From Streptomyces sp. CA-210063 (GTDB taxonomy: Bacteria > Actinomycetota > Actinomycetes > Streptomycetales > Streptomycetaceae), in contig NZ_CP102512.1 of the NCBI RefSeq assembly GCF_024612015.1, positions 9,796,001 to 9,860,000 of the forward strand: a DNA stretch of 64,000 nucleotides, in the 5' to 3' direction. A program made the position numbers and the translations under genes. The notes beneath the pieces were generated by a model. The model had not been told where the DNA came from. It did not search any database and worked only from the letters and a program-made list of their open reading frames with translations. Shown piece after piece: positions 4,270-32,430 of the stretch. Each line of letters starts with the position of its first letter. Within the stretch, counting starts at the first letter, position 1.

Positions 4270-4359
4270 GGTGCTCTCACGTCCTGGTGTGTCGATGTAC
4301 TTGGTGCCCGATTGTCCGCCCGTCCTCACGAGTCGGCGGGATCTTCGATTCTCCTTCCC

Positions 4360-4602
4360 TCACGCGTGGTGCGACACCTCCGCGATCGTCAGCCGCGTGG
4401 CGCGGCGGACCGGGACGTACGGTCCCCGGGGCCCGGTGGACCCGGTCGCCGACACGCCGGACTGCCTGGCCGCCCGCGCCAGTTGGGCGTCCGAGACCCT
4501 GGTGGGGTCGAACGCGGCGACGACATGCGGTCCGCGCTGCTCGCCGAAGGCCTTGGGGCGGGGCGGTTCGGCGGTCAGTGGTGCGTAGTCGGTGGCTGCC
4601 AA
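4360..4602 (-). CDS. Small hypothetical protein after the SWIM gene
   Basis: An 80-residue frame starting at TTG, overlapping the end of the SWIM-protein gene by 28 bases. Codon third positions are almost all G or C throughout, as in real genes here. The protein is basic at the end and has no membrane segment or known motif. It would be the last gene of the MoxR/DUF4132 operon. No function is recognised; the TTG start and short length keep confidence moderate. Confidence 0.45.
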   Translation of the reverse strand: MAATDYAPLTAEPPRPKAFGEQRGPHVVAAFDPTRVSDAQLARAARQSGVSATGSTGPRGPYVPVRRATRLTIAEVSHHA

Positions 4603-11868: not shown

Positions 11869-11879
11869 GAATGTCCTTG

Positions 11880-11911
11880 CTCGGTGGGTCGGTGGGTCGG
11901 TGGGTCGGTGG
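11880..11911. repeat. Octamer tandem repeat before the MoxR gene
   Basis: Four direct copies of TCGGTGGG lie in the 125-base gap between the 1637-residue gene and the MoxR gene, immediately upstream of the MoxR ribosome site. Slippage here would change leader length and not protein sequence. Confidence 0.75.
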
Positions 11912-11961
11912 GTCTGGCTGTCGTTTCGGGGGTGGGAACCGGGGCCCGGGGGGGCGATGGC

Positions 11962-11989
11962 CGGGGGCGCCCGTGGCCGGGCGCCCCCG
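11962..11989. terminator. Hairpin in the gap upstream of the MoxR gene
   Basis: Perfect 11-base arms CGGGGGCGCCC and GGGCGCCCCCG enclose a six-base loop. It lies five bases after the stop of the 1637-residue gene. There is no T-run, so it could be an RNA-stability element or a partial terminator that lowers expression of the genes downstream. Confidence 0.5.
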
Positions 11990-11993
11990 TCGC

Positions 11994-17812: not shown

Positions 17813-18143
17813 AGTTCAGCCCGGAAAACCCGGCCCCAGTGCGACCATGTGCGGAACGCTAGCGGCAGCCACTGACATTCGATCCGGGGCCCCTCCCGAC
17901 AAGGCCCGCCCGCCGTACCGGGAACCCCCGACGACGAAGCAGGCACGCGAGACGATCCCTCCCGCGTCCGGCAGGCCGATCGAAGCGAGAACGCCGACGC
18001 ATCCGTAGACCCGCGTAACCGGAGCACGTATTACCGGCCAGTCACCGATCCCGATGCCGCGCGGCCGGTCCGGTCACCCTCCGCAGTGGCGCGCGGTGCC
18101 GTCATCGCACGGCGCGGTAATCCGGTTGAGGGCCGGCGCGGCC
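17813..18143. other. Intergenic region between divergent DUF4132 and efflux genes
   Basis: About 330 bases with no frame that looks coding by codon bias. It must carry the promoter of the minus-strand operon; no strong -35/-10 pair stands out. Confidence 0.4.
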
Positions 18144-18297
18144 ATGAGTACGGTGCCTCGGGTGATGAGCCCCGAGTCGGACAGAGCGGAGCCGCCGGTC
18201 GCCCGGCGGCGGATCGTCCCTTGACCGACGCAGCCGATCCCGGTTCGTAGGTCGGACTCGTCGCGGGCGGCCGGACACGTGCTCCGTGTGTCCGGCC
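18144..18297 (+). promoter_or_regulatory. Possible leader peptide and tandem hairpins upstream of the efflux gene
   Basis: A 26-codon frame (18144-18224, starting MSTVPRVMSP) ends 129 bases before the exporter gene. Its 3' part overlaps a hairpin with 8-base arms (18191-18198 and 18203-18210). A second hairpin with 10-base arms (18269-18278 and 18288-18297) follows. A short frame followed by alternative hairpins is the layout of drug-responsive attenuators known for chloramphenicol exporters. That this one works that way is inferred. Confidence 0.4.
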
Positions 18298-18352
18298 CCG
18301 TTTCGGCTCACTTCCTCACGACGAGTGACGCTGTTCGACGGCAGGCGCGCGG

Positions 18353-19543
18353 ATGTTCATGCCCGCACCCGTCCACGCTGGAGCCGACTTCGTGCCCGTC
18401 TTCCTCTACGTCCTCGGCCTTGCCGTCTTCGCGCAAGGCACCTCCGAGTTCATGCTGTCCGGTCTCGTACCGGGTGTCGCCCGTGATCTGTCCGTGTCGG
18501 TGGGAGCCGCCGCGAGCCTGACGTCCGCGTATGCCGTCGGGATGATCGTCGGTGCGCCGGTGATGGCCGCGTTGAGCGCGCGGTGGCCCCGCCGTCGCGC
18601 ACTCGCCGGGTTTCTGACGGCCTTTGTCGCCGTGCACGTCGTCGGTGCGGTGACCACGGACTTCGCGGTGCTGTTCGGCACCCGGATCGTCGCCGCGATC
18701 GTCAACGCCGGGTTCCTGGCGGTCGCCATGAGCGTGGCGACCGCCCTCGTGGCGCCGGCGCAGCGGGCCAGGGCCACGGCCGTCCTGCTGTCGGGGGTCA
18801 CGCTGTCGTGTGTCGCCGGAGTGCCGGCGGGGGCTCTGCTCGGTGAGTGGTCCGGCTGGCGTTCGGCCTTCTGGGCGGTCGCCCTCCTGTGCCTGCCCGC
18901 ACTGGCGCTCGTGTTCCGGTCGGCGCCCGCCGACGCGGCCCGTCGGCACGAGATCTCGGTCCGCCGGGAAGTACGCACCCTCAAGTCCCGTGCGGTGTGG
19001 TCGGCGTTGATGCTCGCGGCGATGGTCAACGGGGCGACCTTCGCGACCTTCGCCTACCTGGCCGTCATCGCCACGGAGGTCACTCGCCTGCCGGCGTCCG
19101 CCGTCCCCGGGCTGCTCGCCGCGTTCGGCGTCGGAGCCTTCATCGGCGTGAACATCGCCGGACGCACGGCCGCCGGTCAGCTCCGGCGGGGCATGCTCCT
19201 CGCCCTGTGGTCGCTGCCTGTCGGGTGGGCGGTCATGGCCACCACCAGCGGCGAGACAATGCCGCTGTTTCTTGTGACGGTCGTTCAGGGCGGGCTGTCG
19301 TTCGGAATCGGATCGACTCTCGTCAGCCGTGTCATGCACGTGGCGTCCGACGCCCCCGCCATGAGCGGGTCGTTCGCCACCGTCGCGCTGAACGCCGGTG
19401 CGTTTCTGGGCCCGCTGCTGGCCGGCGCCGTGACGGAGACAACCGGCGACTACCGGGATGCCGTGTGGGTCAGCGCCGCCCTCGCCACCACAGCGGTGGC
19501 GGTCGTCAGCGGTCTGCCCGCCACCCGCCCGGCAGAACGCTGA
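18353..19543 (+). CDS. Cmx/CmrA-family MFS drug exporter (chloramphenicol-type)
   Basis: A 396-residue major-facilitator transporter with twelve predicted spans. The N-terminal signature VLGLAVFAQGTSEFMLSGL and AVGMIVGAPVMAAL are hallmarks of the Cmx/CmrA/CmlR chloramphenicol efflux proteins, and the length matches. It would export amphenicol-like drugs across the plasma membrane in exchange for protons. ATG codons at 18353 and 18359 are both possible, with only a weak ribosome site. It is a single-gene unit: a hairpin follows the stop. The substrate is inferred from family membership. Confidence 0.85.
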   Translation: MFMPAPVHAGADFVPVFLYVLGLAVFAQGTSEFMLSGLVPGVARDLSVSVGAAASLTSAYAVGMIVGAPVMAALSARWPRRRALAGFLTAFVAVHVVGAVTTDFAVLFGTRIVAAIVNAGFLAVAMSVATALVAPAQRARATAVLLSGVTLSCVAGVPAGALLGEWSGWRSAFWAVALLCLPALALVFRSAPADAARRHEISVRREVRTLKSRAVWSALMLAAMVNGATFATFAYLAVIATEVTRLPASAVPGLLAAFGVGAFIGVNIAGRTAAGQLRRGMLLALWSLPVGWAVMATTSGETMPLFLVTVVQGGLSFGIGSTLVSRVMHVASDAPAMSGSFATVALNAGAFLGPLLAGAVTETTGDYRDAVWVSAALATTAVAVVSGLPATRPAER

Positions 19544-19548
19544 CCCCT

Positions 19549-19591
19549 CCCGGGCCCGGCCGGTCGCACCTGCCGCTCGACCGGGCCCGGG
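19549..19591 (+). terminator. Terminator hairpin after the efflux gene
   Basis: The arms CCCGGGCCCGG..TCG (19549-19566, with a four-base bulge) and CGACCGGGCCCGGG (19578-19591) pair across an 11-base loop, starting six bases after the stop codon. Confidence 0.6.
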
Positions 19592-19897
19592 TCACCCCAT
19601 GGAGGATGCCGGCCGTCGCGTCGTGCCCGACCGCCTGGACACCGGAAGCCACTGCGGCGGGGGAGCGGCCCGCCAGGTGCGATACACGCCAATGCGTCGG
19701 CGTCCGCATCATGGGTCGGTCCGGCATCACCAGCCCCCCTCGCACCCCCCGTCACACCCCCGTTACCGTGCGCTTGTGAGGGCCTCCCGATGGCCGCCAC
19801 GGATTCACCACGCAGCCTTCACGAGGCACACACTTCCGGCCGGGTGGCATCCGGTGGGGCAGACGGTGTGCACGCCGGATGCCTAGCCTCCCGGCCC
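19592..19897. other. Intergenic region before the secreted protein gene
   Basis: About 300 bases; no coding frame with the local codon bias, and no clear promoter or repeat seen. Confidence 0.4.
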
Positions 19898-20425
19898 ATG
19901 CGATCACCACTGATGAGACGCTTCGGCCTCGGTGCCGTCCTGGCCCTCGCCCTCGCCGTGTTCGGTATGGCCCCCAGTGCGAGCGCGGTCGACGCGGCCC
20001 CCGCCGAGCTGACGTTCGCCACCGGCAGCGCCACCACCACGCCCGGCGGCACGGTCGACCTGTCGATGACGATCACGAACAACCACACCTATGACATCTG
20101 GTTCATCTACCAGACGATCGAGCCGACCTGGCTGACCAACCAGCGCCCCGACCTGAAGTACGGCTTCACCGGTTGCACCCTCGCCACGGCCGCCGGCGCC
20201 ACCCCCTGCTCCGGGACCGGCCCCGCCAACCTCGGCACCAACTACGGCGCCACGATTCCGCCCGGCCAGAGCCGTACCGTCACGCTGACGCTCCAGGTCG
20301 CCGCAGACTCCGGCTGCAACGGCAACATCGGCTTCTACTCGTACTTCTACGCCGAGTTCAGCGACAGCACGAACATCAGCGGCGGCCCGGTGTACACGCC
20401 CGAGACCCGGGTGCTCTGCGCCTGA
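19898..20425 (+). CDS. Small secreted protein of unknown function
   Basis: A 175-residue protein with a Sec signal peptide (MRSPLMRRFGLG, then a hydrophobic stretch, cleavage after ASA near residue 30). The mature part (about 145 residues) looks like a beta-sandwich of the kind described for CARDB/DUF11-type modules (GGTVDLSMTITNNHTYD; GQSRTVTLTLQV), with four cysteines that could form disulfides (TGCTL, TPCSG, SGCNG, VLC). The ATG at 19898 was chosen over an upstream frame that only adds non-hydrophobic residues; 19913 is an alternative. It lies just before the exopolysaccharide locus and might be a surface partner of it, but this is guesswork. Confidence 0.65.
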   Translation: MRSPLMRRFGLGAVLALALAVFGMAPSASAVDAAPAELTFATGSATTTPGGTVDLSMTITNNHTYDIWFIYQTIEPTWLTNQRPDLKYGFTGCTLATAAGATPCSGTGPANLGTNYGATIPPGQSRTVTLTLQVAADSGCNGNIGFYSYFYAEFSDSTNISGGPVYTPETRVLCA

Positions 20426-20832
20426 CGGTCCACGAGGACATGGGCGGCCGTGACGGGAGTGACCTGAAATGATCTGCGATCAGGCATCCGTCATGGTCTG
20501 GACCACTGGCGATCGGTCCGGCGGACCCGAACGGTCCGCCGGTACGCCCCGCGGGGCCCGGACCAGCGCGCCGGGCCCTCATGGTCGTCGTACGCCCTGT
20601 TCGGACTCTGATGAGAAAAGGTCCAATTCGGTTGCAGAGGCGCCCACTTGGACACCTGCGCTTTTCCGTCATGTTTCGCGGCATGACCACGAAAGCCACA
20701 CACAGACACCACTATGTGACGCGACGGATGCGTCGACGACTGGCTTCTGAGGGGGACGCCGGCGTCACGCAAGGGGGTGCGTCCGCTCAGGAGAGGCGTG
20801 CTCACCCCTGCCCGGGGAGGGGACTTCACCGC
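20426..20832 (+). promoter_or_regulatory. Upstream region of the exopolysaccharide operon with a long 5'-leader hairpin
   Basis: About 400 bases without a coding-like frame. At 20747-20790 CTGAG plus GGACGC pairs with GCGTCC plus CTCAG (11 pairs, GG facing G as an internal bulge), closing a 19-base apical region. The stem ends 42 bases before the ATG of the deacetylase gene, and a GGGGAGGGG ribosome site lies in between. The leader could be a regulatory RNA. It does not show the conserved bases of the c-di-AMP or c-di-GMP riboswitches as I know them. Confidence 0.4.
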
Positions 20833-22962
20833 ATGAAGCGGACTTTACGCACCGCCGTGCTCACGGCGGGCGCGCTGATCGCCGCGCTGGGGCTGCCGGC
20901 CGGTCCGGCCCACGCCGACGACACCACACCCCGTATCGACCTGCGGGTGCTGGTGGTGAGCGACGGTGGCCCGTCCACTGACGCGATCGCCGCCGAACTG
21001 ACCGCGGCCGGCACGCCGTACACCGAGATCGACCTCACGCGGTCCGACCGGACCGTGATCGACGCCGGCTTCCTCGCGGACACCGTCGACGGCCGGCCGC
21101 GCGCCAGGTTCCAGGCCGTGGTGCTGCCCAACGACAACCCGTTCCCGGCCGGATCCACCGAGATGGCGGCGCTCGCGACGTACGAGCAGACATACGCGAT
21201 CCCCCAGGTCGACGCCTACACCTACGCGCGTCCAGAAGCCGGTTTGCAGTACCCGATCCACGGCGGCTACTCCGGCAGCATCGACGGCGCCGAGGCCGAG
21301 GTGACCGACGCCGGGAAGGCGGGCCCCTTCGGCTACCTCGACGGCGCGGTGCCCTTCGAGGACAACGACCCCGCCATCGGCGAGAGTTACGCCTACCTCT
21401 CGAAGCCCGTGACGGGAGCGGACTTCACGCCCTACGTCGAGGCGGCGATCCCCGGGCAGTCCACGCGCGGCACGCTGGTCGGCGAGTACCGGCACGACGG
21501 GCGGCGCGAGTTGGTCGTCACCTTCGTCTACAACCAGTACCAGCAGCAGTTCCGGCTGCTGGCCCGCGGCATCGTGGAGTGGATGACCGGCGGGGTGCAC
21601 CTGGGCGCCTCACGCAACTACTTCGCCGTACACGTGGACGATGTGTTCGCCGCCGACGACCGCTGGAACACCGAGCTCAACTGCACACCCGGCGACGTCG
21701 ACTGCACCGACCCGAGCGTCGAGCCCGACCCGATCCGCATGACGCCCGACGACGTCGACCACGCCACCGCCTGGCAGACCGACAAGGGCTTCACCCTCGA
21801 CTTCGCGTACAACGGCGCCGGCAGCGTCGACCACCGCGAGGACAACAACGGCGACGACCCGCTCACCGACCGGCTGATCGCGGACCGGAACCGGTTCCGC
21901 TGGATCAACCACACCTACTCGCACCCCTTCCTCGGCTGCGTCCAGGACACGAGCGTGGTCCCCTGGAGATGCGCGACCAACGCCGACGGCTCCACCCAGT
22001 GGGTGAGCCGGAACGAGATATCCGACGAGATCGCCACCAACCGGGTCTGGGGCGAGACGGCCGGACTCCCGCTGGAGAACGGCGAGTTGGTCACCGGTGA
22101 GCACTCCGGCATGAGGGTGCTGCCGCAGCAGCCCGAGGACAACCCCAACCTGGCGCTCGCCCTCGACGACAACGACATCACCTGGCTCGGCTCCGACAAC
22201 TCCCGCGAGCCCGCCCAGCGTCAGGTCGGCCCGGCCACGACCGTCCCCCGCTACCCGATGAACGTCTTCTACAACGCGGGCAGGGCGGCCGAGCAGGTCG
22301 ACGAGTACAACTGGATCTACACCAGCCGCGCCCAGGGCGGCAGCGGCATCTGCGAGGACAACCCGGCCACCACCACCTGCCTGTCGGCACCGCTCGACAC
22401 GGCCACGGGATACGACGAGGTCATCGTGCCCCTGGAGAAGCGGATCGCCCTCGGCCACGTCCTCGCCAACGACCCGAAGCCGCACTTCATCCACCAGTCG
22501 AACCTGGCCGAGGACCGCATCGCCTACCCGGTGCTCAGCGGCGTCCTCGACGGCTACGCGGCGCTGTTCGCCGAGAACACCCCCGTGGTCAACCTGAGGA
22601 TGAAGGACATCGGCGCCGAACTGCGGCGCCGGGCCACCTGGCAGGCCGCCCTCCAGGCCGGCGAGGTCACCGCCTACCGCATCGGCGACACCGTGACCGT
22701 CGAGGCACCGGACGAGCTGGCGGTCACCGCGACCCTCCCCACCGGCACCACCCTGGCCGGCGCCGCCTTCGGCGAGGCCTACGCCGGCGCCGTCTCCGGC
22801 TGGACCCCCTCCACGGGCGAGCCCCTCGACCTCACCCTGCCGGCGACCGCCGTGACCTCGGCCGTCGCCTCCAGCGAGTCCGCCGAGGCCACGGATCCCG
22901 CGCCGGACACCCGCGTCCCAGCGGGCGTCGGCGAGAGAGTGCCGTACACCGCGGACAACTGA
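20833..22962 (+). CDS. Secreted polysaccharide deacetylase-like protein (CE18/Agd3-like)
   Basis: A 709-residue exported protein. The signal peptide runs to about residue 32 (ends AHADD). A long N-terminal domain (about 40-250) starts with a Rossmann-like strand (DLRVLVVSDGGPSTD). The catalytic part carries a metal/acid pair D269-D270 (YFAVHVDDVFAADDRW) and H360/H364 in HTYSHPF, the NodB-type H-x3-H metal site. This domain order and length match CE18 deacetylases such as fungal Agd3, which removes acetyl groups from GalNAc residues of galactosaminogalactan. GGGGAGGGG precedes the ATG. It heads a plus-strand run with a PelF-like glycosyltransferase and GH135- and GH114-like genes, which supports an extracellular role on a galactosamine polymer. 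The fold is fairly sure; the polymer is inferred. Confidence 0.75.
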   Translation: MKRTLRTAVLTAGALIAALGLPAGPAHADDTTPRIDLRVLVVSDGGPSTDAIAAELTAAGTPYTEIDLTRSDRTVIDAGFLADTVDGRPRARFQAVVLPNDNPFPAGSTEMAALATYEQTYAIPQVDAYTYARPEAGLQYPIHGGYSGSIDGAEAEVTDAGKAGPFGYLDGAVPFEDNDPAIGESYAYLSKPVTGADFTPYVEAAIPGQSTRGTLVGEYRHDGRRELVVTFVYNQYQQQFRLLARGIVEWMTGGVHLGASRNYFAVHVDDVFAADDRWNTELNCTPGDVDCTDPSVEPDPIRMTPDDVDHATAWQTDKGFTLDFAYNGAGSVDHREDNNGDDPLTDRLIADRNRFRWINHTYSHPFLGCVQDTSVVPWRCATNADGSTQWVSRNEISDEIATNRVWGETAGLPLENGELVTGEHSGMRVLPQQPEDNPNLALALDDNDITWLGSDNSREPAQRQVGPATTVPRYPMNVFYNAGRAAEQVDEYNWIYTSRAQGGSGICEDNPATTTCLSAPLDTATGYDEVIVPLEKRIALGHVLANDPKPHFIHQSNLAEDRIAYPVLSGVLDGYAALFAENTPVVNLRMKDIGAELRRRATWQAALQAGEVTAYRIGDTVTVEAPDELAVTATLPTGTTLAGAAFGEAYAGAVSGWTPSTGEPLDLTLPATAVTSAVASSESAEATDPAPDTRVPAGVGERVPYTADN

Positions 22963-23054
22963 CCTGCGGCACCCGCCCACAAGGTGTCCCGGCCGCCCAA
23001 CGGCGGCCGGGACCGGCAGGGAACCACCCCACACCACGGCCGTGGAGCACACCG

Positions 23055-24563
23055 ATGCCTGTTCCTCACGACGCGCGCGGACTCGGCGCGACGCGCGTCA
23101 CCCTCCTCACCGAAGGCACCTATCCCCACAGTCACGGCGGCGTGAGCGTCTGGTGCGACCAGCTCGTCCAGGGCATGCCCGACCTCGACTTCGACGTCAT
23201 CGCCGTCACCGGCACCGGACGCGAACCCGTGCTCTGGGACCTGCCCGCACACGTCACCCGCGTACGGTCCGTCCCCATGTGGGGCGACCCGCCCGAGGGC
23301 CGCCCGCCCCGGGGCCGCGCCTGCCACCAACTCACCACCGCCTACGAGCAGTTCCTCACCGCCCTGCTCGATCCGGGTGCCGAGGACGGGTTCGCGCCCG
23401 CCCTCTACGCCATGGGACGGGCCGCGGCGGACGGAACGCTGAGCCCCTTTCTGCGCTCGGACCGGGCGATCGCCCTCCTGACCGCCGTCTGGAACCGCCC
23501 CGGCGTGGCCGTGCGCGAGTCCCGGCCCACCCTGCACGACGCGCTCACCGCGACCTCCCTGCTCGAACACGCCCTGCGCCCACTCGCCGCACCACCCCCC
23601 GAGACCGGCGTCGCGCACGCGGTCAGCGGCGGCGTCGCCGTCCTCCCGGGCCTCACCGCCCTCGAACGGCACGGCGTGCCCCTGCTGTTGACCGAACACG
23701 GCGTCTATCTGCGCGAGCGCTACCTCGGCTACCGCACCGCGCCCTACCGCTGGCCCGTCAAGGCCGTCGTCCTCGGCTTCTTCCGCCTCCTCGCCGAGGA
23801 GACCTACCGCCGGGCCGCCCTGATCACCCCGGGCAACCGCTACAACCGGCTCTGGGAGGAACAGGGCGGCGCCGACCCCGAGTCCATCCGTACGGTCTAC
23901 AACGGCGTCGACCCCACCGCGTTCCCGCCGGCCGGGCCCGAGCCGGACACGCTCACCCTCAGCTGGGCGGGCCGCGTCGACCCGATCAAGGACCTGGAGA
24001 CCCTCATCCGGGCGTTCGCCCTCGTCAGGGCCCAACTCCCGGCCGTACGGTTGCGGTTGTTCGGCGGCACACCGCGGGGTGGGGAGGCCTACCGGGAGCG
24101 GTGCGAGGCACTGGCCGCCGAACTCGGGCACGGGGACGCCGTCACCTTCGAGGGGCGCGTCGACGACATCAAGGACGCCTACGCGGCCGGGAACGTCGTG
24201 ATGCTCTCCAGCATCAGCGAGGGCTTCCCCTTCACCCTGATCGAGGCCATGTCGTGCGGCCGGGCCACCGTCTCCACCGACGTGGGCGGCGTACGGGAGG
24301 CCGTCGGCGACACCGGGCTCGTGGTGCCGCCGCGCGACCCGGAGGCAATGGCCAGGGCCGCGCTGGACCTGCTGGGCGACCCGGCGCGCCGCCGGACGAT
24401 GGGAGAAGCGGCACGGCTGCGGGTCATCGAGCAGTTCACCCTCCGCCAGACCATCGACACCTTCCGGTCCATCTACCTCGAACTGCCCACGCTGAACCGG
24501 AAGTCGAAGGTCACGGCGGCCCCGGTGGAGGCGCTGTCCCCGATCAGCACGGTGGCCGGATGA
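23055..24563 (+). CDS. PelF-like family 4 glycosyltransferase
   Basis: A 502-residue cytosolic GT-B enzyme. PelF features are visible: LLTEGTYPHSHGGVSVW near the N-terminus, LLLTEHGVYLRERYL mid-protein, WAGRVDPIKDLETLIRA at the start of the nucleotide-binding half, and EGFPFTLIE with the two acid residues E389 and E397 of the GT4 EX7E motif, followed by STDVGGVREAV. PelF builds the GalNAc-rich Pel polymer from a UDP-sugar in the cytoplasm. ATG at 23055 has GGAG eight bases before it. It overlaps the next gene by four bases (ATGA), so the membrane protein is co-translated, just as PelF pairs with the membrane protein PelG. Confidence 0.85.
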   Translation: MPVPHDARGLGATRVTLLTEGTYPHSHGGVSVWCDQLVQGMPDLDFDVIAVTGTGREPVLWDLPAHVTRVRSVPMWGDPPEGRPPRGRACHQLTTAYEQFLTALLDPGAEDGFAPALYAMGRAAADGTLSPFLRSDRAIALLTAVWNRPGVAVRESRPTLHDALTATSLLEHALRPLAAPPPETGVAHAVSGGVAVLPGLTALERHGVPLLLTEHGVYLRERYLGYRTAPYRWPVKAVVLGFFRLLAEETYRRAALITPGNRYNRLWEEQGGADPESIRTVYNGVDPTAFPPAGPEPDTLTLSWAGRVDPIKDLETLIRAFALVRAQLPAVRLRLFGGTPRGGEAYRERCEALAAELGHGDAVTFEGRVDDIKDAYAAGNVVMLSSISEGFPFTLIEAMSCGRATVSTDVGGVREAVGDTGLVVPPRDPEAMARAALDLLGDPARRRTMGEAARLRVIEQFTLRQTIDTFRSIYLELPTLNRKSKVTAAPVEALSPISTVAG

Positions 24564-25978
24564 GCGGGCCCATGTCACTCGAACCCGGCGGTGCCGAACA
24601 CGACACCCTCGCCATCCGGCTGGCCGACCGGCGCCGCCCGCGCCGCCGCCCCAGCTGGGCCCTCGGCGACGACACCACCCTCACCATCCGTCTGCCGGAA
24701 CAGGGCCCGGACGAGGAGGCCGTCAGCGAACTCGCCGCCGAACTCGCCGACCGCGTCGGCCCGGCCGTCCACCCCTACGAAGTGGCCGCCCTGCTGGAGG
24801 CGGAGGGACTGTCCGCCTCCCTCATCAAGGAACGGTACGGCCACCCGAATCTGTTCTCGCTCGCCTCGGCCCTGTACGAACGGGTGCCCCGCACCTTCCC
24901 GGAACCCGCGCCGACGGCCGACCCGTGGCGCCCCGACACCGTGCGCTGCCTCCTGCGGGGCGTGCTGTTCGCCCTGCCGGGGCTGGCCTATCTGCTGACC
25001 GCACCCCTGTGGAACCCGGGCGCGTACGCACCGGCCCTGATCGTGGCGGGACTCGCCTCCTGGGCCTGGGGCCAGGCACTCGGCCACCGCGCCCACCTAC
25101 GGATGGCGACCGGACGGCGCGAGGCGGGCCGTACGCTCCTGACCGGTGCGCCCGTGGGAGCCGTGCTGGCCACGGCGGTCGCGGCGCTGCCCGCCGAGGG
25201 CGGCCCGGTGACACTGGTGGCGGCCGCGCAGTCCGCGTACCTCGCGGCGGCGGGCGTGCTTCTGGTCCTGGGCCGGGAGCGCCAACTGCTCGCCGCACTC
25301 AGCCCGTTGATCGCGGGCGCCGCCGTCCTGCCGTGGTGGGAGCCGGGCCCTGTGCTGAGGGCCGGTCTGCCACTGCTCGCGCTGGCCGCCACCCTCGCCG
25401 TCACCGGCCGGGCGCTGCGGACCGCCCTCGCCGCAGAGGCCGTCCCCGGCGCCACCCGGCCACGCGTGCTGTGGTCGCTGCCGTACGGCCTGTTCGGCCT
25501 GGCCGCCGGAGTGCTGGTGCTGCTGGAGGGGCGGGAGGACCCGTACGCGGTGATCGTGCTGACGTTGAGCATGGGCCCGGCGGAGTGGCTGCTCTACCGC
25601 TACCGAGGGCTGTCGGTCGCCGCGCTGCGCGCCGTCGCCACACCCGCCGGATTCCTGCTGCGCTCGGCCGGGATACTCGGCCTCTGCCTGCTCGCCTACC
25701 TGCTGCCACTGCTACCCGCGGCCCTGCTCACCGACGCCGACCCGGCTCCCCTGCTCCTGCTCGCGGCCGTCCTGTGGACCGCGCTGCTGCTCCAGGCGTT
25801 CGGGGCGGCCTGGCCGTCGGCCGCGATCTGCCTCGCCGCGGCGGGCGGAGCCGGAGCGGTCACCCTGCTGCGCCTGCCACCCGGCGACCTGGCGCTGCCC
25901 CTGTGCTGCGCCGCCGCAGCGCTCTGTCTGTCGGCGTGCGCGCTGCGGCTGCTCGGCCGGCCCGCGCCACACGCCTGA
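24560..25978 (+). CDS. Polytopic membrane protein, possible PelG-like transporter partner
   Basis: A 472-residue protein. The first about 125 residues are soluble and helical (HPYEVAALLEAEGLSASLIKE). The rest has about twelve hydrophobic segments (for example LLRGVLFALPGLAYLLTAPL, APALIVAGLASWAWGQALG, LLLLAAVLWTALLLQAFGAA). Its place directly after and overlapping the PelF-like gene parallels pelF-pelG. I see no diagnostic PelG motif, so a role in moving the growing glycan across the membrane is an inference from position and topology. Confidence 0.65.
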   Translation: MSGPMSLEPGGAEHDTLAIRLADRRRPRRRPSWALGDDTTLTIRLPEQGPDEEAVSELAAELADRVGPAVHPYEVAALLEAEGLSASLIKERYGHPNLFSLASALYERVPRTFPEPAPTADPWRPDTVRCLLRGVLFALPGLAYLLTAPLWNPGAYAPALIVAGLASWAWGQALGHRAHLRMATGRREAGRTLLTGAPVGAVLATAVAALPAEGGPVTLVAAAQSAYLAAAGVLLVLGRERQLLAALSPLIAGAAVLPWWEPGPVLRAGLPLLALAATLAVTGRALRTALAAEAVPGATRPRVLWSLPYGLFGLAAGVLVLLEGREDPYAVIVLTLSMGPAEWLLYRYRGLSVAALRAVATPAGFLLRSAGILGLCLLAYLLPLLPAALLTDADPAPLLLLAAVLWTALLLQAFGAAWPSAAICLAAAGGAGAVTLLRLPPGDLALPLCCAAAALCLSACALRLLGRPAPHA

Positions 25979-26042
25979 GCCCCGCGCTCACCCACGACCG
26001 GCACCCACAGCCCACATCCGACCGACCGGAAGGACACACGAG

Positions 26043-27044
26043 TTGACCTCCGCACCGCTCGCCGCCGTCACCGGAGCCGAAGGCTTCATCGGCTCCCACC
26101 TCACCGAGGCGCTCGTCGCCTCCGGACACCGGGTCCGGGCCATGGCCCAGTACAACTCCTTCTCCTCCTACGGCTGGCTGGAGACCCTGCGCCCGGACGT
26201 CCTGGACCAGGTGGAGATCGTCCTCGGCGACGTCCGCGACCCCGGCTCGGTACGCGGCCTCCTCGAAGGCGCCGACACCGCCTACCACCTGGCCGCCCTC
26301 ATCGCGATCCCGTACTCCTACCAGGCGCCCCACAGCTACGTGGACACCAACGTCACCGGCACCCTCAACGTCCTGGAGGCCGTCCGGGCCCTCGGCACGC
26401 CCCGGCTCGTCCACACCTCCACCAGCGAGACGTACGGCACCGCCCAGACCGTGCCGATCACCGAGGACCATCCCATCAACACCCAGTCCCCGTACGCCGC
26501 TTCGAAGGCTGGCGGGGACCGGCTCGCCGACAGCTACCACGCGAGCTTCGACACCCCCGTGGTGACACTGAGACCGTTCAACACCTTCGGGCCGCGCCAG
26601 TCGATGCGCGCGGTGATCCCCACGGTCATCGGCCAGGTCGCGGCGGGGGAGCGGACCATCACCCTCGGCGATCTGCGCCCCACCCGCGACTTCACCTTCG
26701 TCAAGGACACCGCGCGGGCGTTCCTGGCCGTCGGCACCGCGCCGGCCGAGCAGGTCGTGGGCCGCACCTTCAACGCCGGTACCGGCGGCGAGATCTCCAT
26801 CGGCGACCTCGTCGCGCTGATCGGCAAGGTCATGGACAGCGAACTCGACATACGGGAGGACGAGGCACGCATCCGGCCCGCCCATTCCGAGGTGATGCGG
26901 CTCGTCGCGGACGCGAGCCGGCTCACCGCCGCCACCGGCTGGCAACCCGCCCACACCCTGGAGGAAGGCCTCGCGCACACCGTGGAGTTCTTCCGCGACC
27001 CGGCCAACCTCGCCCGCTACAAGACCGGCATCTACAACATCTGA
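26043..27044 (+). CDS. NDP-sugar SDR dehydratase/epimerase (LegB-like)
   Basis: A 333-residue extended SDR: Rossmann motif TGAEGFIGSHL at the N-terminus, catalytic TSTSETYG and YAASK, and a substrate region RPFNTFGPRQSMRAVIPT. The sequence pattern, including ALIAIPYSYQAP and the ending ANLARYKTGIYNI, closely follows LegB-type NAD-dependent 4,6-dehydratases of UDP-GlcNAc. An epimerase activity such as UDP-GlcNAc to UDP-GalNAc cannot be ruled out and would supply the polymer directly. It starts at TTG (26043) with GGAAGGA about eight bases upstream, in the plus-strand operon. Confidence 0.8.
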   Translation: MTSAPLAAVTGAEGFIGSHLTEALVASGHRVRAMAQYNSFSSYGWLETLRPDVLDQVEIVLGDVRDPGSVRGLLEGADTAYHLAALIAIPYSYQAPHSYVDTNVTGTLNVLEAVRALGTPRLVHTSTSETYGTAQTVPITEDHPINTQSPYAASKAGGDRLADSYHASFDTPVVTLRPFNTFGPRQSMRAVIPTVIGQVAAGERTITLGDLRPTRDFTFVKDTARAFLAVGTAPAEQVVGRTFNAGTGGEISIGDLVALIGKVMDSELDIREDEARIRPAHSEVMRLVADASRLTAATGWQPAHTLEEGLAHTVEFFRDPANLARYKTGIYNI

Positions 27045-27107
27045 CTCCCGTCCGGCACGTCCGCCGCACATCCCCGAAGTCCACGCAGTCCACGAAGGAG
27101 GAGCACC

Positions 27108-27821
27108 ATGCACGCAGTGATCCTGGCGGGAGGCAAGGGCGTCCGGCTGCGGCCCTACACGACCGCGCTGCCGAAGCCGCTCGTCCCCATCGGAGACCAG
27201 CACGCCATCCTGGAGATCGTGCTGCGCCAGCTCTCCACGGCCGGCTTCACCCACGTCACCATCGCCATCGGCCACCTCGGCGAGATCATCCGCGCCTACG
27301 TCGGCGACGGCTCGCAGTGGGGCCTGACCGTCGACTACGCCACCGAGGAGAGCCCCCTCGGCACCATGGGCCCGCTGCTCACCCTGCGCGAGCGCCTGCC
27401 CGAGACGTTCCTCGTCATGAACGGCGACATCCTCACCGACCTCGACTACGCCGACGTCCTGCGCCACCACCGCGAGTCCGGCGCACCGCTCACCATCGCC
27501 ACCTACGCCCGCAAGGTCCACATCGACTTCGGCGTACTGACCACCGACGACAGCAAGGTCGTCGCGTTCACCGAGAAGCCGAGCATCGACTACCGCGTCT
27601 CCATGGGCGTCTACGGCGTGTCCCGCTCGACGCTGGACGGCTACACACCCGGACTGCCGCTGGGCTTCGACGAACTGGTCCTGGACCTGATAAGGACTCA
27701 GAACCAGCCGCACGCCTACGAGTTCGACGGGTACTGGCTGGACATCGGCCGCCCCGACGACTACGACCGGGCCAACGCCGAGTTCACCACCCGCAAGTCG
27801 CTTCTGCTCAAGGGAGCCTGA
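27108..27821 (+). CDS. Sugar-1-phosphate nucleotidyltransferase
   Basis: A 237-residue RmlA/LegF-type enzyme. The nucleotide loop GGKGVRLRPYT is followed by PKPLVPI; the metal-binding aspartate is in VMNGDILTD; the C-terminal GYWLDIGRPDDY closes the sugar site. It activates a sugar-1-phosphate with an NTP, providing the NDP-sugar used by the neighbouring dehydratase and glycosyltransferase. AAGGAGGAG stands just before the ATG, the best ribosome site of the locus. The sugar and nucleotide specificity cannot be read from sequence. Confidence 0.85.
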   Translation: MHAVILAGGKGVRLRPYTTALPKPLVPIGDQHAILEIVLRQLSTAGFTHVTIAIGHLGEIIRAYVGDGSQWGLTVDYATEESPLGTMGPLLTLRERLPETFLVMNGDILTDLDYADVLRHHRESGAPLTIATYARKVHIDFGVLTTDDSKVVAFTEKPSIDYRVSMGVYGVSRSTLDGYTPGLPLGFDELVLDLIRTQNQPHAYEFDGYWLDIGRPDDYDRANAEFTTRKSLLLKGA

Positions 27822-27828
27822 GCACCAC

Positions 27829-28965
27829 ATGCGCATTCTCGTCCTGGGGTTCACCGGATATCTGGGCACCCACGTCGTCGAGGGACTGCGTGCCCTGCCG
27901 GGCGCGCTGGTCCTCGGCGGTGGCCGCGCGCCCACCGCCGATCACCGCATCGACCTCGCCACCGTCGGCCGGGACCAGCTCGCGAAGACCCTGGCGGCGG
28001 TCGCGCCCGACACCGTGATCAACTGCGCGGGCGCGACCGGCGGCGATCCCGTCACCCTCGCCGAGGTCAACGCCCGCGGCCCCGCGGTGCTGTGCGCCGC
28101 CCTGCGCGAGGCGACCCCGGGCGCCCGGCTGGTGCACCTGGGGTCGGCCGCCGAGTACGGCCCCGGCGTCCCGGACGTCCGGGTGACGGAGTCGGCGGCC
28201 ACCCGCCCGCTCGCCCCCTACGGCGCGACCAAGCTCGCGGGCACGATCGCCGTCACCACCTCCGGCCTGGACGCCGTCGTCCTGCGCGTGGGCAATCCGG
28301 TGGGCCCCGGGGCGCCGTCCACCGGCCTGCCCGGCCGCATCGCGGGACTGCTGCGGGCGGCCGGCCCCGACCCCGACGCCGTACTGCCTCTCGGCGACCT
28401 CTCCGCCCACCGTGACTTCGTCGACGTACGCGACGTAGCCCGGGCGGCGGTCCTCGCGGCCACGGCCCCCGGCCCGCTGCCCCCCGTCCTCAACATCGGC
28501 GGGGGCCGGGCCGTACCGGTGCGCGAGGTGGTCCGGGGGCTGGCCGACAAGGCCGGGTTCCGGGGGCGGATCGCGGAGAACGCGGCGGGATCGGGGGGCG
28601 CGGTGGGCAGGACAGGGCCGGCCGGGGCGGCGGGTGCGGGCGGCGCCGCGGGGGCAGCCGGTTCCGCTCGTGTGGTCGGTGGGGCGGCGTCGGCCGATGC
28701 GGCCCATGCGGCCGGCGGCGCCGGGCCGACCGGTTCGGCTCAGGCGTTCGCCTCGGTCCGCTCGGCGGACGTGTCGTGGCAGTGCTCCGACATCACCGCC
28801 GCCGAGGCGGCCCTGGGCTGGCGCCCGACTCACACCCTCGACGACGCGCTCACGGCACTGTGGGAAAGCGGGGAGCGCGGCGGGGGCGGCGAAGGCGGGG
28901 ACGGCAGAGAACGCGGCGGAGGCCGACTGGGTGGGGGCGGTCGGAAGGGCGACGGTGGGTCGTGA
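27829..28965 (+). CDS. NAD-dependent epimerase/dehydratase-family SDR with low-complexity insert
   Basis: A 378-residue SDR: LGFTGYLGTHV nucleotide loop, HLGSAAEYGP and YGATK active-site motifs, RDFVDVRDVARA later. It may act on the NDP-sugar produced nearby, for instance as a 4-reductase or epimerase. Two odd regions: an insert of about 50 Gly/Ala-rich residues (about 260-310) before the final SDR motif (ALGWRPTHTLDDAL), and a Gly/Arg/Glu-rich tail after about residue 345. Neither is usual in the family. The stop overlaps the next gene (GTGA). Confidence 0.75.
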   Translation: MRILVLGFTGYLGTHVVEGLRALPGALVLGGGRAPTADHRIDLATVGRDQLAKTLAAVAPDTVINCAGATGGDPVTLAEVNARGPAVLCAALREATPGARLVHLGSAAEYGPGVPDVRVTESAATRPLAPYGATKLAGTIAVTTSGLDAVVLRVGNPVGPGAPSTGLPGRIAGLLRAAGPDPDAVLPLGDLSAHRDFVDVRDVARAAVLAATAPGPLPPVLNIGGGRAVPVREVVRGLADKAGFRGRIAENAAGSGGAVGRTGPAGAAGAGGAAGAAGSARVVGGAASADAAHAAGGAGPTGSAQAFASVRSADVSWQCSDITAAEAALGWRPTHTLDDALTALWESGERGGGGEGGDGRERGGGRLGGGGRKGDGGS

Positions 28966-29624
28966 GCCTGTTGATCCCGCTGTACGTTCACCCGGCCGAG
29001 GACCCGGGGGCCTGGCACCGGCTGATCAGGGCCGCGACCCGCACATACGGCGTCGTCCTCAACCCCGCCAATGGTCCCGGCGACGGCCCCGACCCCGCCT
29101 TCACCGCCGCGGCCGGAGCACTGCGGGCCGCCGGGGCCCGGCTGCTCGGTTACGTCGACACCGACTACGGGGTGCGCGACCGCGCCGAGATCGCCGACGA
29201 CGTACGCCGACACCAGGAGTGGTACGCGGCCGACGGCTGCTTCCTCGACCAGGTGACGGCCACGCCGGACGGCCTGCCCGCCTGCCGCCGGCTCGTCCGG
29301 ACCGTACGCCGGCTCGGCGCCGGCACCGTCGTCCTCAACCCCGGGGTCCATCCCGCCCCCGGATACGCCCGCCTCGCCGACCTGACCGTCACCTTCGAGG
29401 GCCACTGGTCGACGTACGTGTCGGCGTTCAGCCGGCCCACCTGGGCCGCCCGGCATCCACCCGAGCGGCTCTGCCATCTCGTCTACGGCGTCCCCGAGGC
29501 GCTCGTACCGCTCGCCGTCCGCACCGCACACGACCGGGGCGCCGGGGTCTGCGGCCCCGTGACGGGCGAACCCCCCAACCCCTGGGCGCAGTTGACACCG
29601 GCACTCACCGGGACGCAGCGATGA
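28962..29624 (+). CDS. Spherulin4/Sph3-like glycoside hydrolase (GH135-like)
   Basis: A 220-residue TIM-barrel-type protein: LLIPLYVHP at the start, VVLNPANGPG, LLGYVDTDYGVR, WYAADGCFLDQV and LTVTFEGHWSTY are the landmarks of the spherulation-specific family 4 group. Fungal Sph3 cleaves galactosaminogalactan and is needed to make it. Candidate acids are D96 and E146; the residue after D96 is Gln97, where I recall a Glu in characterised Sph3. No signal peptide precedes the GTG at 28962, which overlaps the previous stop, so the product is either cytosolic or exported by another route. It overlaps the GH114 gene by four bases. Confidence 0.75.
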   Translation: MSLLIPLYVHPAEDPGAWHRLIRAATRTYGVVLNPANGPGDGPDPAFTAAAGALRAAGARLLGYVDTDYGVRDRAEIADDVRRHQEWYAADGCFLDQVTATPDGLPACRRLVRTVRRLGAGTVVLNPGVHPAPGYARLADLTVTFEGHWSTYVSAFSRPTWAARHPPERLCHLVYGVPEALVPLAVRTAHDRGAGVCGPVTGEPPNPWAQLTPALTGTQR

Positions 29625-30415
29625 GGAGGACGACGCTCGCGTACGCGGCCCTGCTCGCCGCACTGGTGGCTTCGACGCTGACGGGCTGCGCCCGCGACGG
29701 CGACACGGACTCCAGGACGCTCTGGAAACCCCGGCCCGGGCTCGCCTGGCAGTGGCAGTTGGACGGAAGGGCCGACCCCTCGGCCGATGTGCCGGTCTAC
29801 GACATCGACGGCTTCGAGAACTCCGCGGCGGACGTGGCCCGGCTGCACCGGGACGGCCGGAAGGTCATCTGCTACATCAACGTCGGCGCCTGGGAGGACT
29901 TCCGGCCCGACAAGGACGCCTTCCCGCGCTCGGTGCTCGGCGAGCGGAACGGCTGGGCGGGCGAACGGTGGCTGGACATCCGGCGACTCGACGTCCTGCG
30001 GCCCCTCATGGAACGACGCTTCGACATGTGCCGCGACAAGGGCTTCGACGCGGTCGAGCCCGACCTCGTGGAGGGCTACGGCAACGAGACCGGCTTCCCG
30101 CTCACCGCACGCGACCAGCTCACCTACAACCGCATGATCGCGGACATCGCCCACGAGCGCGGACTGTCGGTGGGCCTGAAGAACGACCTGCCCCAGATCC
30201 CCCAGCTCCTGGCCGACTTCGACTTCGCGGTCAACGAGGAGTGCGCGCAGTACGAGGAGTGCGCGCGGCTCACACCGTTCATCGAGGCCGGCAAGGCCGT
30301 GTTCCATGTGGAGTACACGGAACCCAGGAGCAGCTTCTGCGCCGAGTCCCGCCGACTGAAGCTGTCCTCCATGGTGAAGCGACTCGAACTCGGAGTGTGG
30401 CGGCAGCCCTGCTGA
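29621..30415 (+). CDS. GH114-like polygalactosaminidase lipoprotein (Ega3-like)
   Basis: A 264-residue lipoprotein: the signal peptide ends in the lipobox LTGC (C23), so it is anchored on the outer face of the membrane. The GH114 core shows WQWQLDG, VYDIDGFEN, VICYINVGAWEDFRPD, D143/E146/D148 in FDAVEPD, and E206 in AVNEECAQY; an Asp and Glu pair at these places is the expected catalytic machinery. Family members such as fungal Ega3 hydrolyse alpha-1,4-linked galactosamine. Next to Sph3-like and CE18-like genes this strongly suggests a deacetylated galactosamine polymer. The last gene of the coupled run. Confidence 0.82.
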   Translation: MRRTTLAYAALLAALVASTLTGCARDGDTDSRTLWKPRPGLAWQWQLDGRADPSADVPVYDIDGFENSAADVARLHRDGRKVICYINVGAWEDFRPDKDAFPRSVLGERNGWAGERWLDIRRLDVLRPLMERRFDMCRDKGFDAVEPDLVEGYGNETGFPLTARDQLTYNRMIADIAHERGLSVGLKNDLPQIPQLLADFDFAVNEECAQYEECARLTPFIEAGKAVFHVEYTEPRSSFCAESRRLKLSSMVKRLELGVWRQPC

Positions 30416-30459
30416 CCGTCATGGGCTGACCGTCATGGGCGCGAAATCAGGAGGACGGC

Positions 30460-30966
30460 ATGGAGTGGCCGACCGGGATCGAAGAACAGGTCGCTCTGGT
30501 GGACGCGGCGCTGCGGCCCATCGCCGAGGCGCCGGTGGACATCGGTGATCCCGACTGGGCGGAGAAGACGCGGCAGCGGCCGGACGCCATGGACGAGGCG
30601 GGTGTCCGGGCGGAGGCCGAGTCCGTGCTGCGCGCCATGCTCACCGCCTACGCGGACGGCGACGAGGAACTGCGTACGTCCATCCGCGGCCTCTTCGATC
30701 GCCACACCGCGTTCCGCTGGGGCGTGCACCTGCCCTTCGAACCCACCCCCGAGGGCTTCCGGCTGCGCCTGCTCCACCTGTCCGCCGTCGACCAGGGCTC
30801 CGACACACGTGACGAACTGCTGGCGCTGGGCGACCTGTGCGAGCAGGCGCGGGAGGCGGGAATCGACCTCGGCCCGCTCCTGCGCGAGGCGGCTGACCTG
30901 TCCAGCCGGGAGGACAAGTACGGCATGGGCTCCATGCGGGACATCCTGCTCCGCACCGCCCGGTGA
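30460..30966 (+). CDS. Hypothetical protein
   Basis: A 168-residue acidic, mainly helical protein with no signal peptide or membrane span. An AGGAGG site lies six bases before the ATG, and codon use is typical. It follows the GH114 gene by 44 bases and may be co-transcribed with it. Motifs such as FRWGVHLPFEPTPEGFRLRLL do not match a family I know. Confidence 0.65.
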   Translation: MEWPTGIEEQVALVDAALRPIAEAPVDIGDPDWAEKTRQRPDAMDEAGVRAEAESVLRAMLTAYADGDEELRTSIRGLFDRHTAFRWGVHLPFEPTPEGFRLRLLHLSAVDQGSDTRDELLALGDLCEQAREAGIDLGPLLREAADLSSREDKYGMGSMRDILLRTAR

Positions 30967-31200
30967 CCGATGGGCGCGAGCGACGTGGGGTGTCAGTGGT
31001 GGCTGCGGTGATCGCCGCTGAGCGGCTGACGGGCCGGCTCACACCCCGTGCGGACGCGCGCCGCACCCGCGACGCCCTGTCCCCTGGCGCACAACCGAGC
31101 GTGACCTGCCTGTTTACCCGCGGAAGAGGAGCGCGCCCCGGTGGCCTCCGGCTCCTATGGTGGAGATCACACGAAGGCGACGGACGCTGAGGCGGCGACC

Positions 31201-32430
31201 ATGGCGGATACGGCGATCGACTACGCGGCGGTGTTCCAGGCGCTGCCGGGCATGGTGGCGCTGCTGACACCGGAGCTGGTGTACGCGGACGCGAACGAGG
31301 AGTTTCTGAGGATGTCGGGCCGCACCCGTGAGCAGGTGGTCGGCCGGTATCTCTTCGATGTGTTCCCCGACAACCCGGCCGACGCGTCCGCGAGCGGGAT
31401 GCGGAACCTGGCGGCCTCTCTCATCCGGGTGGCGGAGAGCGGTGAGCGGGACTCCATGGCGCTGCAGCGGTACGACGTGGAGTCGGTGCAGCGGCCGGGG
31501 GAGTGGGAGGAGCGGTACTGGAGCCCGGTGAACGTGCCGGTCGTCGGCCCCGACGGAAGCGTGATGCTGCTGATCCACAAGGTCGAGGAGGTCACCGAGC
31601 TGATCCGGGGCCGCGAGCGCGCCCCCGACGACCGGGCCCGCGTGCTGGAGGCCGAGCTGTACACCCGCGCCCGTGAGCTGCAGGAGGTCAACGAACGGCT
31701 GCGCGAGGCGCACGCCCATGAGCGTGAGGTCGCGCTCGCCCTGCAGACGGCGATGCTGCCCGCGCCCCATCCGATCGGACACCACCGGGCGGCCGTGCGC
31801 TACCAGCCGGCGACCGACGCGCTGAACGTGTGCGGCGACTGGTACGACCTCGTCGACCTGTCCGGCGCCGACCGCATCGGTATCGCCGTCGGTGACGTGG
31901 TCGGTCACGGCCTGGCCGCCGCCTGCGTCATGGGCAAGCTGCGCAGCGCGCTCAGCGCCGCGTCCCTCGTCGCGGACGGTCCCGCCGAGGCGCTGGACGC
32001 CCTCGGCCTGTACGCCCGCTCCGTCGACGGCGCCGAGAACACCACCGTCGTCCAGACCTGCATCGACTGGGAGACCCACACGATCACCTACAGCAGCGCC
32101 GGCCATCTGCCGCCCGTACTGCTGGGCCGCGACGGCACGGTCGCCTTCCTCGACCAGGCCACCGACCCACCGCTCGGCGCCCGCCCGGAACACATCCCCC
32201 GCCCCGAGGCCACCCTCGGCTTCACCGAGGGCGACACCCTGGTCCTGTACACGGACGGTCTGGTCGAACGGCGCGGCGAGGACATCGACCACAGCCTCGC
32301 CCGGCTGGCCGACGCCCTCACCCGCCACCGCCGATCCGCCCCCGAGCCACTCGCCGACGCCCTCCTCCTCGACCTGCTCCCCTCCGGACGCGCCACCGAC
32401 GACACCGCCCTCGTCATCATCCGGTTGTGA
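31201..32430 (+). CDS. PAS-domain PP2C-type (SpoIIE/RsbU) serine phosphatase
   Basis: A 409-residue signalling phosphatase. A PAS domain (about 5-130; VFQALPGMVALLTPELVYADAN) is joined by a helical linker (about 140-180) to a PP2C-like SpoIIE domain with metal-binding aspartates in GDWYDLV, VGDVVGHG and GRATDDTALV. Such proteins dephosphorylate anti-sigma-factor antagonists and so release sigma factors. The ATG at 31201 was preferred to 31141 because the PAS domain begins right after it. It ends in a GTGA overlap with the AraC-type gene. Confidence 0.85.
   Translation: MADTAIDYAAVFQALPGMVALLTPELVYADANEEFLRMSGRTREQVVGRYLFDVFPDNPADASASGMRNLAASLIRVAESGERDSMALQRYDVESVQRPGEWEERYWSPVNVPVVGPDGSVMLLIHKVEEVTELIRGRERAPDDRARVLEAELYTRARELQEVNERLREAHAHEREVALALQTAMLPAPHPIGHHRAAVRYQPATDALNVCGDWYDLVDLSGADRIGIAVGDVVGHGLAAACVMGKLRSALSAASLVADGPAEALDALGLYARSVDGAENTTVVQTCIDWETHTITYSSAGHLPPVLLGRDGTVAFLDQATDPPLGARPEHIPRPEATLGFTEGDTLVLYTDGLVERRGEDIDHSLARLADALTRHRRSAPEPLADALLLDLLPSGRATDDTALVIIRL

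Follow-up and report, generated by a model that had tools for sequence, protein, structure and literature searches.

Which sugar is polymerised by a bacterial locus that unites a Pel-type glycosyltransferase with relatives of the enzymes acting on fungal galactosaminogalactan (GAG), and how does the chain leave the cell? This question is raised by a run of eight genes in Streptomyces sp. CA-210063, analysed here within a stretch of 64,000 nucleotides (GCF_024612015.1, NZ_CP102512.1 positions 9,796,001–9,860,000, forward strand), which is called the window below and in which coordinates are numbered unless another locus is named. The run (agd, pelF, mem, legB, ntp, sdr, sph and a GH114 gene; Table 1) occupies positions 20833–30415 of the plus strand with every frame open, just as an earlier, sequence-only reading of this DNA had described it. 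Three of its junctions are stop-start overlaps, namely pelF/mem (24560–24563), sdr/sph (28962–28965) and sph/GH114 (29621–29624), while the others have gaps of 92, 64, 63 and 7 bp. That reading had counted four overlaps and credited the locus with three extracellular-type activities; apart from these two points its observation stands. The locus is real and conserved, its kind has already been reported, and the features in which it differs make the sugar of its polymer a testable question. It very probably represents an exopolysaccharide system of Pel/GAG type.

Five of the eight products were named firmly by Pfam and NCBIfam. The pelF product exceeded the cut-off of the PelF equivalog NF038011 (170.9 bits versus 100) and scored 210 bits with PF11997, which confirms its earlier designation as a PelF-like GT4 enzyme; in the PDB it found general GT4 structures, the best being 6kih (90.7 bits). 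For the GH114 protein 287.9 bits were obtained with PF03537 (cut-off 27) and 189.9 bits with Ega3 (6OJ1), and for sph 121.6 bits with Spherulin4, PF12138 (cut-off 30.2), and 59.1 bits with Sph3 (5C5G). The ntp product matched NTP_transferase, PF00483 (135.2 bits, cut-off 21.2), and the sdr product Epimerase, PF01370 (130.5 bits, cut-off 20.9). The nucleotidyltransferase, the short-chain dehydrogenase/reductase (SDR), the Spherulin4/GH135-like protein and the GH114-like lipoprotein proposed from the letters alone were thus all borne out. According to the available portion of PMC12054363, Ega3 (GH114), Sph3 (GH135) and PelAH share an Asp/Glu catalytic pair. The PD and VNE blocks of the GH114 protein align with Ega3 and were taken as this pair, and in sph the motifs FLD and TFE, aligned with Sph3, keep both its Asp and its Glu.

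The relationship of agd to the CE18 deacetylases is confirmed only through intermediates. Neither phmmer with agd nor profile A1, composed of 12 agd rows from Streptomyces alone, retrieved Agd3 from the PDB. Profile A3, which joins agd with seven actinobacterial relatives 27–60% identical to it, retrieved Agd3 (6NWZ) with E 2e-58, the match falling into two parts of the chain (26–315 and 376–682). All eight members of A3 matched Agd3_CE with E values of 0.01 or less (lowest 1.4e-37) and six of them matched CBM87_Agd3 at the same threshold, agd itself showing Agd3_CE only. In the alignments D269/D270, H360/H364, R473 and H554 of agd correspond to D377/D378, H510/H514, R613 and H668 of Agd3, for which the available part of PMC7229062 gives the roles of base, metal ligands, arginine and acid; in A1 these residues are invariant. 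Judged by catalytic residues, motifs CM1–CM4 of CE18 are present, with Phe in place of the conserved Met of CM4. The residues D269/D270 and H360/H364 had been named correctly in the sequence-only reading, provided that the start is placed at 20833.

Conservation was followed in two samples. The first comprised 40 fetched Streptomyces loci, 36 with legB (type A) and four without it (type B); the second comprised named loci picked by their deacetylase (the best 80 of 519, all from Streptomyces), 66 of which reach 10.5 kb past the agd start. The order agd-pelF-mem-legB-ntp-sdr-sph is kept in all 66. Among the named loci, that of Streptomyces griseofuscus DSM 40191 (L149) lacks only GH114, and that of Streptomyces sp. 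SirexAA-E (L155) has the complete set of eight. Two of the checks suggested earlier, gene order across Streptomyces and family profiles, came out in favour of the proposal (CE18 through the intermediates), and the outcomes named as refuting it, family mismatch and lost linkage to pelF, did not occur. Full-length pelF, legB, ntp and sdr occur in every one of the 36 type A loci, which were sorted by legB, and are accompanied by mem in 35 (short in L068), sph in 35 (cut by a contig end in L039) and agd in 33; in L044 a short agd reading of 155 residues is seen. The pelF/mem overlap is preserved in 38 of the 40 fetched loci, and the gaps around legB have medians of 86.5 and 40.5 bp in relatives. 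The GH114 gene behaves differently: among the 35 fetched loci extending beyond sph it is present in 20 and reduced to a remnant in one (L053), and the sequence fetched for the other 14 does not show it; among the named loci it is present in 53/66 and missing in 13/66. A length filter counts 18 rather than 20, since the start was chosen too late in two loci. Leaving aside three short readings, 18 of 20 relatives show the lipobox pattern. Thus, the synthesis and sugar genes form the core of the locus, and GH114 is optional. Since it is missing or a remnant in 15/35 and missing in 13/66 loci, trimming by GH114 is accessory, and on this point the earlier picture of a polymer both made and trimmed is not supported as stated.

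Across Streptomyces mem was matched in 91 of 199 genomes. In the phylum, profile A1 found 13 of 396 genomes, belonging to 7 of 236 genera. Among seven loci outside Streptomyces PelF stands beside the deacetylase in six (L159, L160, L162–L165), not in L161, and mem, Spherulin4 and GH114 occur in three each. L159 combines pelF, mem, ntp (65%) and an SDR with a nucleotide-sugar dehydrogenase-like gene (by eye), so that the sugar genes beside PelF vary. Spherulin4 was detected in 7 of 296 genomes of the phylum, and 10 of the 12 listed places adjoin a PelF-type gene by coordinates.

Two groups of PelF were separated by a search for LegB across the 199 Streptomyces genomes (threshold E 1e-60). LegB of at least 81% identity is carried by 48 of them, and all other matches have 55% or less; a second LegB-like gene of 51–55% identity is seen in other Streptomyces genomes. 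In 44 of the 48 cases a PelF copy of 70–100% identity is found no more than 6 kb from LegB; contig ends are close by in three of the other four, and the last belongs to the decayed copy of the cluster in G069 (L180), where legB alone is intact. No LegB of at least 81% was found within 6 kb of 55 PelF copies of 61–66% identity, and two copies of 83–85% have none in reach (G028 and G152, the latter with LegB on a different contig). Both PelF types coexist in 19 genomes, and 80 genomes contain either. On a PelF tree of 47 rows one change each is required for the A rows and the B rows. The genome studied here carries both kinds of cluster, A in the window and B (L074) at 7.80–7.81 Mb of G000. Its third locus (L179) has a PelF-type gene that remains under the PelF cut-off (81.6 bits), a polytopic protein with an N-terminal block similar to that of mem, an SDR resembling sdr at 40% and a Spherulin4 with the second catalytic acid replaced (by eye), and gave no CE18 or GH114 matches. 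In total this genome contains two GH114 and three Spherulin4 genes, every one of them beside PelF-type genes, one of which is the PelF under the cut-off.

The nature of the donor has to be sought in the trio legB, ntp and sdr. The legB product scored 237 bits with GDP_Man_Dehyd, and its motifs TSTSETYG and SPYAASK are kept in 36/36 relatives. The Glu of TSTSETYG aligns with the Glu of the TDP-glucose 4,6-dehydratase 1r66, while Ala occupies this site in 6dnt, which we take to be an epimerase. With the galE model TIGR01179 scores of 140 and 45.7 were obtained versus a cut-off of 262.3, which does not indicate a Uge3-type UDP-sugar 4-epimerase; a simple UDP-GlcNAc 4-epimerase was rejected as a role for legB by motif and family models. 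The closest PDB relative of ntp is mannose-1-phosphate guanylyltransferase beta (7d72, 109.7 bits) and that of sdr is GDP-6-deoxy-D-lyxo-4-hexulose reductase (2pk3, 56.6 bits). An Ala/Gly-rich low-complexity insert is located within sdr near the C-terminus (about 28540–28760), and sdr has 378 amino acids (aa) here versus about 300 in four relatives compared. LegB works on GDP-GlcNAc. The legionaminic acid pathway, in which it acts, has a GDP-sugar segment according to the portion of PMC4481668 available. These relationships suggest a route from GDP-HexNAc through GDP-4-keto-6-deoxy-HexNAc to a reduced 6-deoxy sugar, and the trio would then provide the locus with a donor of its own, for which a GDP-linked 6-deoxyhexose or 6-deoxy-N-acetylhexosamine is the likeliest candidate. 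We lean slightly towards the entry of a trio-made donor into this polymer; that it is a 6-deoxy amino sugar in particular is a tentative and rather doubtful suggestion. A donor of its own would imply that cluster A and its sister without the trio make polymers of different sugar. The galactosamine-containing polymer of the sequence-only reading is not supported as stated, since the sugar genes are not of Uge3 type and the best PDB relatives of ntp and sdr are GDP-sugar enzymes.

A plain galactosamine polymer is nevertheless the strongest alternative. PelF would then use housekeeping UDP-GalNAc, and the trio would make UDP-GalNAc, with the LegB-like enzyme as a 4-epimerase, or else a side or end sugar. 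CE18, GH114 and PelF relatives whose substrate is known do act on GalNAc/GalN polymers, as the accessible text of PMC7229062, PMC12054363 and PMC13254593 tells, and cluster B shares the core genes while lacking the trio; however, the galE score far under its cut-off, the dehydratase-type Glu of the LegB-like motif, absent from 6dnt, and the association of LegB with one PelF group only make this explanation a real possibility that we do not favour. It is also conceivable that the trio serves another glycan, a cell-wall polymer or a glycoprotein, and merely shares the operon, and the gaps of 64 and 63 bp flanking legB could indeed house a promoter of its own. Yet the trio sits between mem and sph in 66/66 named loci and is present in 36/36 fetched loci, themselves sorted by legB, its last gene overlaps sph in 32 of 35, and legB of at least 81% was met away from the cluster only near contig ends or in the decayed copy, so that such independence appears improbable.

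In the absence of any Pfam or NCBIfam family match, mem is predicted to adopt the 12-helix fold of MOP/MATE flippases. Its N-terminal helical block spans about residues 50–110. A regular expression recovered this block in 2/8 sequences, and the ungapped score exceeded 200 shuffles in 5/7 relatives, two of which are from Streptomyces; in L160 and L179 the block became visible only after a one-residue shift and did not beat the shuffles. No PelG structure turned up among the fold matches, which carries no weight either way. By sequence mem differs from PelG, and judging by the predicted fold it looks new as an exporter of such polymers. Together with the sugar genes of the locus, this unrecognised exporter means that the polymer may differ from known ones.

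Among the enzymes that had been considered extracellular, sph does not fit, because its frame begins at the domain core and has no leader. Fungal Sph3 has a Glu adjoining the catalytic Asp, plus a leader or a membrane anchor; sph lacks both this Glu and any leader. The residue after its Asp is Gln, and Gln or Arg is found there in 38 of 39 relatives, the pattern being missed in one. In 33 of the 39 the protein begins five residues ahead of the first barrel motif, with starts chosen near that of sph in the window. In a few of the 39 loci the frame 5' of this start reaches hydropathy values up to 2.32, comparable with the leaders of agd (median 2.27, minimum 0.48). Since crude hydropathy separates leaders so poorly, leaderlessness in the relatives rests on the chosen starts. 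Beginning as it does without a leader, sph is probably cytosolic, and its activity may be altered.

What the computation shows is which genes are present, the families they match, their linkage, the division of PelF into two groups and a predicted fold for mem; the enzyme activities, export by mem, the donor and the cytosolic place of Spherulin4 are inferred. The best explanation as a whole, which we consider likely, is a synthase-dependent locus of Pel/GAG type. Cytosolic PelF would polymerise nucleotide-activated N-acetylhexosamine, and mem, with its MOP fold and its gene overlapping pelF, would take over the export role of PelG, with PelF probably docking onto the N-terminal helical block. 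The Sec-exported CE18 enzyme would deacetylate the chain in part and so render it cationic and adhesive, and trimming at the cell surface would fall to the GH114 lipoprotein where this optional enzyme is present. Leaderless Spherulin4 would remain in the cytosol and might work there on stalled chains or serve as a binding subunit. The earlier interpretation thus survives in its main part, a conserved locus in which a PelF synthase is combined with relatives of CE18, GH135 and GH114, and not in the details noted above. In the boldest version, '6-deoxy-Pel', a donor-switched PelF clade would take a GDP-linked donor from ntp, legB and sdr, and its product would be a cationic chain built from a 6-deoxy amino sugar (e.g. 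D-fucosamine or quinovosamine). A PelG-replacing protein of MOP fold with a new N-terminal PelF-docking domain would export this chain, and the cell would run a sister system of galactosamine type beside it; in this complete form the proposal is unlikely. A locus for foraging on or attack against GAG-like polymers of soil fungi, which the secreted deacetylase and surface GH114 could strip, is very improbable and was rejected, because the core of the cluster is synthesis, the synthase and flippase-fold protein being its steadiest members, GH114 the one most often missing and agd missing or a remnant in 3/36, and because no import or sugar-breakdown genes were recognised in the run by Pfam and NCBIfam matches of the eight products.

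Several points weigh against the Pel/GAG-type explanation or its parts. All claims about products and activities are computational, and the donor of PelF is proposed independently of any prediction for PelF itself. The agd sequence alone scores 19.1 bits with Agd3_CE, below the gathering score of 27.6, and its AlphaFold2 model has a pLDDT of 45 (34 rows, 74–90% identical to agd); this poor model and the failure of the Streptomyces-only profile are why the CE18 claim rests on intermediates, the earlier CE18/Agd3-like designation holding by A3 and not for agd alone. PelG (PF16933) is over its cut-off nowhere in the genome, the best score being 24.1 bits versus 29 and away from the locus; hhalign of mem with three PelG sequences found nothing, both profiles being shallow, and Foldseek by itself gave no mem matches at E 0.001. 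No PelD or PelE family is among the Pfam/NCBIfam matches of the eight products of the locus. The legB product remains just under the cut-off of TIGR04180, the NAD-dependent 4,6-dehydratase LegB (454.6 versus 475 bits). The substrates assigned to ntp and sdr are guesses based on remote relatives, and for sdr the epimerase/dehydratase 6wjb follows closely (55.4 bits), with UDP-glucose 4-epimerases at 47–49. On the PelF tree the A rows have modest support (91/62) and only four trio-less Streptomyces rows are included. Finally, the pairing of LegB with PelF has an exception in G028, where a PelF copy of 83% sits at the beginning of a contig and searches with LegB and mem gave no match; fragmentation of its assembly into 1300 contigs could account for this.

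In Aspergillus the galactosaminogalactan cluster consists of gtb3, uge3, sph3, agd3 and ega3, and Agd3, Sph3 and Ega3 thus occur together there as their relatives do in the window. The window differs from it in PelF and a separate flippase-fold protein, in a LegB-like rather than Uge3-like enzyme and in its leaderless Spherulin4. Bacterial operons in which agd3 is joined by genes for a glycosyltransferase, a polytopic membrane protein and GH114, and in some Actinobacteria also for Spherulin-4, were reported in 2020 (PMC7229062), so that the link of the fungal set to a Pel synthase, earlier regarded as unusual, is known. They share with the window the CE18 homologue, the cytoplasmic glycosyltransferase, the multi-spanning membrane protein, GH114 and Spherulin-4. 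The word PelF is absent from the main text of that paper, and its available portion mentions no fold of the membrane protein, no LegB/NTP/SDR trio and no two systems per genome; Pel/GAG gene transfer between bacteria and fungi is proposed in it, and galactosamine polymers of Streptomyces walls are cited. Gram-positive pel loci, actinobacteria included, are described in the accessible part of PMC7112168, and CE18-like features of B. cereus PelADA in that of PMC13254593. As far as these two texts go, pelDEADAFG shares with the window PelF, a CE4/CE18-like deacetylase and a membrane exporter; the window has no recognised PelD/PelE and no PelG by sequence, its deacetylase is CE18-like, and it adds GH135, GH114 and sugar genes. 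The loci L162 and L163, from two further Actinomycetota, resemble the window in having PelF, CE18 and Spherulin4 next to each other, but they have true PelG (PF16933, 470.6 and 459 bits) and a Spherulin4 with a leader and an Asp-Glu pair (by eye). These two loci stand between the Pel and GAG gene sets. Beyond PMC7229062 no paper on Streptomyces PelF/CE18 clusters was found among open-licence PMC papers by title and start of abstract. Within the portions of the literature compared, four features were unmatched and look new: an exporter of predicted MOP fold that does not resemble PelG, a LegB/NTP/SDR trio linked to only one of the PelF groups, two systems paired in a single genome and a Spherulin4 that lacks a leader; part of these apparent novelties may already be in print.

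Table 1. Genes of the locus, a possible associated gene and two further loci of the same genome (window numbering, or that of the locus named)
Feature	Position	Strand	Description
agd	20833..22962	+	secreted CE18/Agd3-like deacetylase, 709 aa, Sec-type leader (judged by eye)
pelF	23055..24563	+	GT4 glycosyltransferase, PelF equivalog, 502 aa
mem	24560..25978	+	polytopic, 472 aa; N-terminal helical block and ~12 membrane helices
legB-like	26043..27044	+	NDP-sugar 4,6-dehydratase, TTG start, motif TSTSETYG
ntp	27108..27821	+	sugar-1-phosphate nucleotidyltransferase
sdr	27829..28965	+	extended SDR, 378 aa
sph	28962..29624	+	Spherulin4/GH135-like protein, 220 aa, leaderless
GH114	29621..30415	+	Ega3-like endo-alpha-1,4-galactosaminidase lipoprotein, lipobox LTGC
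possible associated small secreted protein	19898..20425	+	175 aa, family not recognised, 5' of agd
sister cluster B, L074 (G000:C1:7799547-7819447)	3706-10444		agd, pelF, mem, sph, GH114; without trio
third locus, L179 (G000:C1:3436000-3455900)	about 8171-13773	minus	distant PelF-type gene, polytopic protein, SDR, Spherulin4

Of 33 loci with full agd, 25 have the gene of the small secreted protein on the same strand, 288–593 bp ahead of agd. Conserved runs upstream of agd are limited in relatives to three, of 6–7 bases each, and an Rfam scan of 18000–31200 gave no matches at gathering scores. Just downstream of the run, at 31141–32430, a PAS plus SpoIIE-type phosphatase is encoded.

Pel and GAG are cationic biofilm polymers common to bacteria and fungi. 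A genus in which some genomes carry paired paralogous PelF/CE18 systems, only one of which has sugar-nucleotide genes, would offer a direct test of how PelF chooses its donor, and mem would provide a new exporter for polymers of Pel/GAG type. Galactosamine polymers and an endo-galactosaminidase in Streptomyces are an old observation, cited in the available portions of PMC7229062 and PMC12054363, and the locus gives candidate genes for it.

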